The notes under the pieces are model-generated. The model was not told the origin of the DNA and made no database searches. It saw only the letters and a program-made list of their open reading frames with translations. A program made the translations under genes and the position numbers. This document shows positions 18,865 to 21,735 of a stretch of DNA of 21,735 nucleotides, piece by piece. The stretch is from a virus, in the IMG/VR virus record IMGVR_UViG_3300033571_000199, positions 1 through 21,735 of that record, one strand, 5' to 3'. The stretch's first letter is position 1, and each line of letters begins with the position of its first letter.

Positions 18865-19322
18865 CTTTCAAACTGTCGAAGCGAAGTCTTGACCGATTAG
18901 AGGGGGTTGATGCTCGGCTGGTTCAATGCGTCAAGCGTGCCATTGAGTTGACCTCAGTTGACTTTGCTGTGACGGAGGGACTGAGAACCAAAGAGCGGCA
19001 GATTGAACTATTCAACAAAGGTGCCAGCCAAGTTCGTGACGGCGGCACTCATGTGGAAGGCAAGGCGGTTGACTTAGTGGCATTCCTTGGAGGGCGTATC
19101 TCTTGGGAATTGAACCTGTACGACGACATTGCTCTGTCAATGGCAACTGCCGCCCGAGAAATCAAGTTGCCTCTGAGGTGGGGAGCCGCATGGAACATCC
19201 CCGACATCACTCAATGGAACGGGACAATGGAGGCGGCGATGCAGTACTACATCGACACACGGCGCAAACAGAACCAACGCCCGTTTATCGATGCTCCACA
19301 CTTCGAGATAGCAGTTCGGTGA
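18861..19322 (+). CDS. Endolysin, M15-type peptidase (VanY / L-alanyl-D-glutamate peptidase-like)
   Basis: This 153-aa protein starts at ATG 18861, in ATGA overlap with the holin stop; GTG 18849 is a less likely alternative. Residues 38-52 read TEGLRTKERQIELFN. The metal site follows: H64 and D71 in THVEGKAVDLV (H-x-x-G-x-A-x-D) and H147 in DAPHFEI, with D144 just before. These are the zinc ligands of M15 peptidases such as the T5 and Listeria phage endolysins, which cut peptide cross-links or stems in peptidoglycan. The RWGAAWNIPD segment resembles the 'WGG.W....D' motif of the family. No signal peptide or cell-wall-binding domain is present, which suits holin-dependent release. Confidence 0.9.
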   Translation: MTFKLSKRSLDRLEGVDARLVQCVKRAIELTSVDFAVTEGLRTKERQIELFNKGASQVRDGGTHVEGKAVDLVAFLGGRISWELNLYDDIALSMATAAREIKLPLRWGAAWNIPDITQWNGTMEAAMQYYIDTRRKQNQRPFIDAPHFEIAVR

Positions 19323-19575
19323 CCTGTTCCAGCAGGTCTTCCTCAGTCAGCCCGTAGTGACGGGCAAAGGCTTTGCGCCCCATGCCATGCACACCTGAGT
19401 TGCCTCGGTGATGCTCGGGGCACAGTGGAATGACGGGGGCATCATCCCTGACCCCACCAAGACGGCGAATGTGGTGCACTTCAGCAGGGGTGCCACGATA
19501 CCCAAGGTTGCGACACAAAATGCACCCAAGGTCAGCGACTTCCCCGTAGTGTTTGCGCATGGCGGCGTTCGACAT
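19285..19575 (-). CDS. Ref-like HNH nuclease
   Basis: This 96-aa protein (from ATG at 19575; 19560 is an alternative) matches the Ref/RecA-dependent nuclease domain. A zinc pair C18-x2-C21 is followed by H34-H35 in EVHHIRRLGG, then PLCPEHHRGNSGVHGMGRKAF carries C52, H55, H56 and H63, and HYGLTEEDLL closes the domain. In phage P1, Ref cuts DNA at RecA-mediated D-loops. Here it would serve recombination or replication. The gene overlaps the upstream nuclease gene by 44 bp and its 3' end overlaps the endolysin gene by 38 bp on the other strand. Most of P1 Ref's N-terminal extension is missing; this compact form is common in other phages. Confidence 0.8.
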   Translation of the reverse strand: MSNAAMRKHYGEVADLGCILCRNLGYRGTPAEVHHIRRLGGVRDDAPVIPLCPEHHRGNSGVHGMGRKAFARHYGLTEEDLLEQVTELLSRSVEHR

Positions 19576-19921
19576 GGTAGAACCACTTGAGAATGAGTTG
19601 CTCGAGATGAACCATCGTATCACCCTTGCGCTCCAGTGACCCGTCAGGCTTGAGCCATTCAATGCACGACACACTCATGCCAGCGTCAGTGTTGCCCGTG
19701 ACAATCAGCACCACAAACTTCGGAGTGTTGGCAAGGGCACGGAGCAATATCCATTGCCCACCGCCAAAGTTTTCGTGAGGTCGCTTCCACTCACAAACCA
19801 GAAAGTGTCCCCGCCGCTCATATACCATGTCGAGGTTTGAGGGCAGGAACTTTGGATGGTCTGGAATCAACCCCGCCAAGTCTTGGAAATCCAAGTGCTT
19901 GGCATCGGGGTTGCGCATCAT
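19532..19921 (-). CDS. PD-(D/E)XK-like nuclease
   Basis: This 129-aa protein starts at ATG 19921 in ATGA overlap with the upstream stop, with AAGGGAAG before it. D31 lies in SNLDMVYERRGHF, followed by E44-W-K46 in FLVCEWKRP and Q56 in GGGQWILLRAL. The spacing D-x12-E-x-K plus a downstream Gln is the classical PD-(D/E)XK nuclease core, with the GQ helix as in VRR-NUC or resolvase-like proteins. It would cut branched or single-strand-containing DNA during phage replication or recombination. It shares a 44-bp overlap with the Ref-like gene, so the two nucleases are made together. The catalytic pattern is visible; the substrate is inferred. Confidence 0.65.
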   Translation of the reverse strand: MMRNPDAKHLDFQDLAGLIPDHPKFLPSNLDMVYERRGHFLVCEWKRPHENFGGGQWILLRALANTPKFVVLIVTGNTDAGMSVSCIEWLKPDGSLERKGDTMVHLEQLILKWFYHVERRHAQTLRGSR

Positions 19922-20599: not shown

Positions 20600-20745
20600 G
20601 GGTTCTCCTTTTCGGTGGTGTTCAAAAGATGCTCTCGCAATCGCTGGAGTTCATTGATGCGGTAGCGGTATTCGGCAAGCGCCTCCTGCTTGTACCTAGT
20701 CCTCAGTTCGGTTATGCGGAGGTCGATAGTCGCCACGATGTCCAT
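20542..20745 (-). CDS. Small helical protein of the replication region
   Basis: This 67-aa protein starts at ATG 20745 with AAGGAAAAATCC before it. An in-frame start further upstream (20871) would lie wholly inside the P-like gene and is unlikely. Residues 1-45 form one long charged helix (IDLRITELRTRYKQEALAEY, then RINELQRLREHLL) that looks like a coiled coil. The last 20 residues are Ser/Thr/His-rich and unstructured, and are coded in the overlap with the 74-aa gene. The start overlaps the 3' end of the helicase-loader-like gene by 50 bp. The function is unknown. Confidence 0.62.
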   Translation of the reverse strand: MDIVATIDLRITELRTRYKQEALAEYRYRINELQRLREHLLNTTEKENPCYLRNPSGLHTATTSHGS

Positions 20746-21151
20746 GGATTTTTCCTTGCATTGATTCACGGATTTTTGCCAAGCACTCTTTTGCCCTGCG
20801 ACTGTTCTGCTCCAGTTCCTCTGCTGTCCACTTTCGTTCCAGCATGGGGGTTGCAGGGGCAGTCCAAGCATGACGCATGAGTTCCATAAACTGCGGCAAA
20901 GATGGCGGCTCTATTGGTAAGGCATCCAGAACCTTCTTGATGACATCGGGGCGGTCAACATACCCGCCCAACTTCTCAGCCCAATGGTTCATGGCATTGA
21001 CCACGCCAGCATCATTGCCGTCAGGCAATACTTGCCCCGTTCTCCACATATTGAGGAACCGAGTGCCGTAGTGCCCTTGCATTGTGGCAAAGATTTTCTG
21101 CACCCAATGGTCAGGTAATCTTTTTGATGTCGAGGTCGATTGTTCGGTCAT
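20696..21151 (-). CDS. Lambda P-like helicase loader
   Basis: This 151-aa protein starts at ATG 21151, which has AAAGGAGA 8-9 nt upstream; ATG 21166 (15 nt earlier) lacks such a site. The core reads WVQKIFATMQGHYGTRFLNM, then WAEKLGGYVDRPDVIKKVLD, then PPSLPQFMELMRHA. This follows the replication protein P pattern '...F..l...yg..f...w......v...Wa..L.g.....i..gL..l....p.~lP.F..lc'. P-type proteins deliver the host replicative helicase to the origin opened by the initiator. The neighbouring DUF1376 initiator gene fits that partnership. A charged C-terminal tail (EELEQNSRRAKECLAK) may bind the helicase. It is the lambda P analogue by pattern; this was not confirmed by a search. Confidence 0.68.
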   Translation of the reverse strand: MTEQSTSTSKRLPDHWVQKIFATMQGHYGTRFLNMWRTGQVLPDGNDAGVVNAMNHWAEKLGGYVDRPDVIKKVLDALPIEPPSLPQFMELMRHAWTAPATPMLERKWTAEELEQNSRRAKECLAKIRESMQGKIHGHRGDYRPPHNRTED

Positions 21152-21735
21152 CGTGTAGTCTCCTTTCATCACCAAAAATTGCTCGGGCGGCGGCAATGTT
21201 CTTGTCCTGATATGCCGCAGGTTTATTCCTCAAGTGTTCGGCAATCCAATCTGCTTTGAACCCAACCCAACCCCGCTCACAGCAGATGCGAATTGCGTCT
21301 TCCAAAGGAATGCCAGCCTTGTTCGCTTCCCTGACCAACCCTTTGAGAGCGGTCTCCGTCATCTTGGCTTTCTTGGCTTTGCGAACTTCTAAGAAATCAG
21401 ACCAGACAGATGCAGACACCCCGTCAGGGGCAACCACCGCAGGTGGCTTTGTATTTCTTGATTCATGATTCTTGATTGATGATTCATGATTCATGATTGG
21501 TTGAGCGTCAGTGGCACGGGCGTTGAACCGAGCCTGAGCGGATGCTTTGCCAGCCCGTGACGCTTGCTCATGCTTGGCGTGGTATCGGGCAATCTCAGAA
21601 TCGCATCTCTTGTGCGTCCATGCACCAAGGGTGCCATCCATGGTGAAGAACTCGAGCATGATGCCCTTGCCCAATTCCTCAGGCACACGGCACTTGCGGA
21701 ACACCATCGACAGGTCATCGTGCGGGATGGGTCGC
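21111..21735 (-). CDS. DUF1376-type phage replication initiator (5' partial)
   Basis: The frame runs off the right edge; about 207 residues are visible, and codons upstream of the first ATG read in frame (RPIPHDDLS), so the true start is outside. The visible part has KGIMLEFFTMDGTLGAWTHKRCDSEI, split here as LEFFTMDG, then WTHKRCDSEIARYHAKHEQA, then SRAGKASAQARFNAR. These are typical of the DUF1376 N-terminal domain of phage O-like replication proteins. A repetitive linker (NHESSIKNHES) follows. The C-terminal part is WSDFLEVRKAKKAKMTETAL, then REANKAGIPLEDAI and RGWVGFKADWI, also normal for the family. The linker is coded by six 7-bp repeats that may be the origin. The stop overlaps the P-like gene by 41 bp. 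Confidence 0.78.
   Translation of the reverse strand, partial: RPIPHDDLSMVFRKCRVPEELGKGIMLEFFTMDGTLGAWTHKRCDSEIARYHAKHEQASRAGKASAQARFNARATDAQPIMNHESSIKNHESRNTKPPAVVAPDGVSASVWSDFLEVRKAKKAKMTETALKGLVREANKAGIPLEDAIRICCERGWVGFKADWIAEHLRNKPAAYQDKNIAAARAIFGDERRLHDDRTIDLDIKKIT
21459..21500 (+). repeat. Six tandem 7-bp repeats, candidate origin iterons
   Basis: TGATT recurs exactly every 7 bp at 21459, 21466, 21473, 21480, 21487 and 21494. The units are TGATTCA, TGATTCT, TGATTGA, TGATTCA, TGATTCA and TGATTGG. The stretch is A+T-rich compared with its surroundings and lies in the middle of the initiator gene. Iterons inside the initiator gene are how lambda and relatives mark their origin. Because 3 x 7 bp equals 7 codons, the protein shows a 7-residue repeat (NHESSIK / NHESRNT). 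An origin role is inferred. Confidence 0.75.

Follow-up and report, generated by a model that had tools for sequence, protein, structure and literature searches.

The locus raises the question of why a phage gene for a replication initiator should carry a perfectly phased short repeat in the middle of its coding sequence. The stretch analyzed, called the window here, is one complete virus record, a phage fragment of 21,735 bp (IMGVR_UViG_3300033571_000199). The features of the window on which the argument depends are listed below.

20696..21151, minus strand: neighbor gene, overlapping the 3' end of the initiator gene; putative divergent relative of P-like helicase-loader proteins
21111..21734, minus strand: replication initiator gene (ORF) with a DUF1376-type N-terminal domain, a disordered linker and an O-like C-terminal domain; the 5' end lies beyond the record
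21445..21456, minus strand: A-rich tail AAATACAAAGCC, directly 3' of the heptamers
21457..21498, minus strand: array 2, the reported block read in coding-strand phase as six AATCANN heptamers
21496..21539, minus strand: array 1, four degenerate 11-bp units (GCTCAGGCTCG GTTCAACGCCC GTGCCACTGAC GCTCAACCAAT), directly 5' of the heptamers

The repeat and the gene that carries it

An initial annotation of the window reported six 7-bp units in perfect phase at 21459-21500 on the plus strand (TGATTCA TGATTCT TGATTGA TGATTCA TGATTCA TGATTGG), and this description is exact. The 6-unit TGATTNN pattern is present a single time in the window and in none of 100 dinucleotide shuffles, with a chance expectation of zero, and TRF detects the block independently. 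A better phase is obtained on the coding strand, where positions 21498-21457 read AATCATG AATCATG AATCATC AATCAAG AATCATG AATCAAG. As had been noted, the block also makes a 7-residue protein repeat; it encodes MNHESSIKNHESRNT, within the low-confidence linker of the initiator. The block was described as A+T-rich as well, and its A+T content is 71% compared to 38% in the 100 bp 5' of the array and 48% across the window. The most A+T-rich 54-bp stretch of the record begins at 21448 and overlaps the heptamers. On base composition, array 2 and the A-rich tail (70% A+T together) are an A+T-rich, opening-prone stretch. A sequence search found no near-exact copy of the window's heptamer array.

The initiator gene is cut by the record end, leaving 207 of ~244 residues when judged against a close relative, L005. 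Its product matches PHROG families for a primosomal protein (1.7e-26) and, in its C-terminal part, 'replication initiation O-like' (PHROG 678, 5.4e-20). The block had been placed in the linker of a DUF1376 gene. The linker position and the domain type both hold, but only full-length relatives pass the curated Pfam cut-off for DUF1376 (PF07120), scoring 58-85 bits against 30.1, while the truncated window copy reaches 14.4 bits. A model of L005, which is 89% identical to the window initiator, has two folded parts with a low-confidence linker between them: an N-terminal domain to about residue 111, the array-coded linker at 113-134 and a helical C-terminal domain. A PDB fold search gave no significant match, only weak winged-helix-like matches that include the DnaD N-terminal domain.

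The neighbor gene had been called a P-like loader. Its product is 36% identical (E 2.9e-23) to the annotated replication protein P in MW202520, which agrees with that name, but it has no family match of its own in Pfam or PHROG, and PHROG 109 'P-like helicase loader' is matched only by the neighbors in two relatives (L020 and L022). By sequence, the window's neighbor gene may at best be called a divergent P-like protein. In many relatives the neighbor is annotated as replication protein P, a helicase loader or a replicative (DnaB-type) helicase. Elsewhere in the window, a minus-strand gene at 19285-19674, convergent with the endolysin gene, carries a Pfam RecA_dep_nuc domain (Ref-like RecA-dependent nuclease, E 2.2e-8).

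Occurrence of the heptamers in other phages

Protein searches with the initiator recovered 35 viral loci. All 20 distinct DUF1376-type genes examined, the window included, contain 4-6 AAYCANN units at the same linker position, so the repeat expected in close relatives with the same initiator is present in each of them. Relatives with other N-terminal domains among the 35 loci had no AAYCANN array at the linker. Unit position 3 is T in nearly every unit of the window's clade and C in most others, which are mostly AACCANN. Eight of the relatives with another N-terminal domain and a similar C-terminal domain (L028, L029, L031 and L033-L037) have a linker with AGATAAGATTA-type repeats (peptide DKIRLDKIRLDK) and no heptamers.

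Viral contigs were also scanned with the pattern alone. This returned at least 120 arrays, and among the matches listed 116 of 120 were in ORFs with a DUF1376-type N-terminal domain; two further arrays were in truncated ORFs with the same linker. A C-terminal domain of the window type accompanied only 55 of the 120 arrays among the matches listed, so the heptamer is kept alongside differing C-terminal domains. A further sample comprised 92 initiator genes, from phages and prophages, that were not chosen for repeats; 32 had at least four exact units inside the gene, and none of the 92 fetched loci had at least four exact units elsewhere on either strand. Each of 29 long records contained one heptamer array per genome.

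The 7-bp phase is conserved in relatives, as the initial annotation expected, with arrays of 4-9 AAYCANN units. It had also predicted that copies would be gained or lost in threes, and this was not borne out. All numbers from 4 to 9 were seen in 103 non-redundant arrays (4 copies in 10 arrays, 5 in 59, 6 in 21, 7 in 8, 8 in 3 and 9 in 2), and the flanking codons absorb the frame. The A+T content of these 103 arrays is 66% compared to ~50%, and the A-rich tail is common across them.

Four T-type units (AATCANN) were rejected as a diagnostic by themselves, as that scan returned mostly unrelated repeats. T-type arrays also occur in unrelated DNA and, therefore, the initiator context is essential; six such arrays (L269, L270, L272, L295, L313 and L325) are in short ORFs or apparently non-coding viral DNA unrelated to initiators. 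A reversed-pattern scan of viral contigs (ACYAANN) was invalid as a control because it recovers many AACCAAN arrays shifted by one base. Some DUF1376 initiators have other short repeats or none that are clear. In Polynucleobacter prophages (L428-L455), the heptamer CACCANN replaces AACCANN and adjoins ATGCGAACGCA 11-bp units. A search of a plasmid collection matched nine records, none covering 80% of the query, and showed no plasmid use of the module. One locus, L392 (PQ492659), belongs to Limnohabitans phage DC33; this 39-kb record is classified with the filamentous ssDNA phages (Inoviridae), apparently by a taxonomic mistake.

An 11-bp array 5' of the heptamers

A second array with an 11-bp period, overlooked in the initial annotation, lies directly 5' of the heptamers, and its last unit shares 3 bp with the first heptamer. 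The units in the window are degenerate, and within the window alone lag 11 does not reach significance under codon permutation. When the window was searched for four copies of GTTCAAC at 11-bp spacing, a motif taken from relatives, array 1 ranked top of 43,388 window positions, at the register that the relatives predict.

The signal is clear across the family. In the 66 bp 5' of the 103 non-redundant heptamer arrays, identity is 47% at lag 11 and 41% at lag 22, compared to ~22-29% at most other lags; these two peaks mark helically phased direct repeats. Different clades have different units, with GTTNAAC-N4, ATGCGAACGCA, CCCC-based and AACCCA-based classes; sites of the GTTCAAC and GCGAACGC classes are among them, and GTTCAAC-N4 is the form in the window's clade. 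GTTNAAC-N4 units are found at -8, -19, -30 and -41 from the heptamer array. Both signals were present in 27 genes, and in every one of them the short-period array (7 bp in 26 and 6 bp in one) came 3' of the 11-bp array. The palindromy of the 11-bp units is weak, averaging 0.46 compared to 0.40 in shuffles.

Selection by the 11-bp GTTNAAC motif alone gave 115 loci, of which 74 were DUF1376-type, and 51 of the 74 then had heptamers. In most of the remaining GTTNAAC loci other short purine-rich repeats follow, some of them in other initiator families. At nine loci (L478, L481, L494, L513, L518, L527, L541, L549 and L561), GTTNAAC 11-bp arrays are followed by AAAGTAAAGG- or AGAGAAGAG-type purine repeats; these are mostly mid-size ORFs without a DUF1376-type domain. 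The nine loci suggest that other families of initiator may share the two-part arrangement.

The class of the 11-bp unit covaries with the N-terminal domain of the initiator (Mantel r 0.175, p<=0.001), whereas the C-terminal domain shows no such covariation (Mantel r 0.017, p 0.32). Because of this difference, we infer that the N-terminal domain reads the 11-bp units.

A proposed two-module origin

The explanation we consider likely is that the linker-coding part of the initiator gene contains the phage's replication origin, made of two modules and lambda-like in plan. The initial annotation had proposed an origin inside the initiator gene as in lambda, with one sequence serving as both origin and linker, and the comparative evidence supports this well. 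Module 1 would consist of ~4-6 palindrome-like units of 11 bp, each spanning one helical turn and recognized by the DUF1376-type N-terminal domain, and its sequence would drift along with that domain. Module 2 would consist of 4-9 AAYCANN heptamers and a short A-rich tail. This module, which is A+T-rich, strand-asymmetric and strongly conserved, would be the site of duplex opening, at which one strand is engaged by the initiator or by the helicase loader/DnaB. The reader of the heptamers would then be something conserved, such as a host factor, the loader/helicase or, once the duplex has opened, the initiator. The linker could tolerate a peptide dictated by the DNA since it is disordered. Both arrays, their order, the DNA-level constraint, the family-wide conservation, the covariation of module 1 with the N-terminal domain, the A+T content and the GC-skew location are observed; from these we infer an origin at this locus, binding of module 1 by the N-terminal domain and an opening or loading role for module 2.

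Another possible explanation is that the heptamers are themselves the duplex sites (iterons) of the initiator and the 11-bp array is auxiliary or regulatory. The company that the heptamers keep would fit this, as they go with the DUF1376-type N-terminal domain far more often than with this C-terminal type (116 compared to 55 of the 120 matches listed). However, 7 bp is not a helically phased spacing, the heptamer core is nearly invariant while the initiators diverge, it is the 11-bp class that covaries with the N-terminal domain, and the heptamers and tail form the A+T-rich part. This explanation is unlikely in our view. The heptamers, which had been taken for iterons, are probably not iterons of the classical kind because their core varies far less between phages than is usual for replicon-specific iterons; the helically phased array 5' of them fits that role better.

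GC skew

GC skew at the site had been suggested as a check on an origin. With the arrays masked, the detrended GC-skew minimum was at most 2 kb from the array in 18 of 29 genomes compared to 3.1 expected, a result in which GC skew is confounded by gene and transcription direction. The minimum was within 500 bp in 4 genomes after masking (0.8 expected), and the association at 1-2 kb persists. A first result, in which the minimum was 48-142 bp from the array in 7 of 29 genomes, was largely an artefact of the C-rich array itself and was discarded.

The position of the minimum also bears on whether the arrays could be something other than an origin, either a cis-acting site through which the replication operon is autoregulated or an element of the mRNA. 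The array is transcribed within the initiator gene, and initiators often autoregulate. However, the mid-gene position, the single copy per genome, the A+T-rich block beside helically phased repeats and the GC-skew minimum all fit an origin better, and we find the regulatory explanation improbable.

Selection on the DNA sequence

Since the array is translated, the contribution of the peptide was assessed by keeping the amino acid sequence constant and drawing codons anew at the frequencies of each gene, which gives the number of intact units expected. There were 108 intact units compared to 47 expected with the peptide kept. Within the array, Pro is CCA in 27 of 28 cases, Ser is TCA in 18 of 18 and Thr is ACC in 25 of 28, compared to 31%, 20% and 33% in the remainder of these genes. 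When the window is compared with its four closest distinct relatives, changes affect 1 of 120 sites for unit positions 1-5 and 21 of 48 for positions 6-7; upstream third codon positions in the same comparison differ at 78 of 312. Under synonymous codon permutation of the 92 genes, period 7 was significant in 50 and period 11 in 38, and each other period in at most 8 (period 6 in 8 and period 12 in 6). Because codon choice follows the repeat, positions 1-5 hardly change and period 7 survives codon shuffling, these sequence comparisons indicate that the DNA sequence itself is under selection and that the peptide alone does not explain the repeat.

The least probable explanation is that selection acted only on the peptide, a linker repeating every 7 residues (NQEPITN / NHKSSIT), with the repetition in the DNA being incidental or left over from recent slippage. 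It draws on the repeat that the array does encode in a disordered linker and on 7-bp units yielding the same cyclic peptide in any frame. It is hard to reconcile with the codon choice and the permutation result, with units that vary at positions 6-7 and not 1-5 across deep divergence, and with an adjoining array of period 11 bp, a length not divisible by three.

Comparison with known origins

The lambda origin lies within gene O and has four 18-bp iterons and a 38-bp A+T-rich sequence (PMC3349717, PMC5043065). As in lambda, the origin-like repeats of the window are in the initiator gene between its two domains, iterons are followed by an A+T-rich stretch, and a helicase-loader-type gene adjoins, with the P-likeness of the window's neighbor being partial. 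Unlike lambda, the N-terminal domain is DUF1376-type, the units are 11 bp and not 18 bp, and the A+T-rich stretch is itself the conserved heptamer array. Lambda-type iterons are inverted repeats bound by initiator dimers, and the 11-bp units have the slight average palindromy given above; as for the O-type initiator, the C-terminal part matches the O-like PHROG 678, and the N-terminal domain is DUF1376-type.

At the origins of iteron plasmids, helically phased direct repeats adjoin an A+T-rich region (PMC5043065). The arrangement in the window is similar, but it lies inside the initiator gene and has an 11-bp unit.

A precedent comes from the Obolenskvirus phages Brutus and Scipio, which have the same initiator family as the window (both are among the tblastn matches). 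The available portion of the paper on them proposes, on the model of lambda, that short direct repeats in the middle of the replication protein gene may be an origin; the repeats are 9 to ~20 bp and were described in the two phages (PMC10888812). Repeats as a possible origin inside this gene were, therefore, already proposed for two relatives, while that portion of the paper does not describe the heptamer core, the two-array plan, a codon test or the breadth of occurrence (PMC10888812).

In the Rac prophage of E. coli, the DUF1376 gene ydaU is followed by ydaV, which encodes a putative ATP-binding protein, and the prophage has an active origin, oriJ (PMC3945230). The likeness is that ydaU and oriJ are in one prophage. 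ydaU has no AAYCANN array and only a weak ATAAAG-type repeat. A literature search for DUF1376 or YdaU together with an origin found nothing experimental.

Implications

There is about an even chance, in our estimation, that the two modules represent an origin class common to DUF1376-type phages. In such a class, fast-evolving 11-bp sites recognized by the N-terminal domain of the initiator would be combined with a nearly universal AAYCANN array as a strand-specific opening or loading element engaged by a conserved partner, the whole lying in DNA that codes for a protein linker, and other initiator families would follow the same plan with other short repeats (AACCAG, GATAAA, AGAGAAG). If this is true, the origin of a large and mostly uncharacterized group of phages and prophages could be read from the genome by a simple pattern, and DUF1376, a domain of 'unknown function' and the proposed reader, would gain a testable role. 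The fixed heptamer beside drifting 11-bp sites would make recognition of the opening region directly testable. The locus would also be a clean case, if the reading is right, of one stretch of DNA acting as both an origin and a protein-coding linker.
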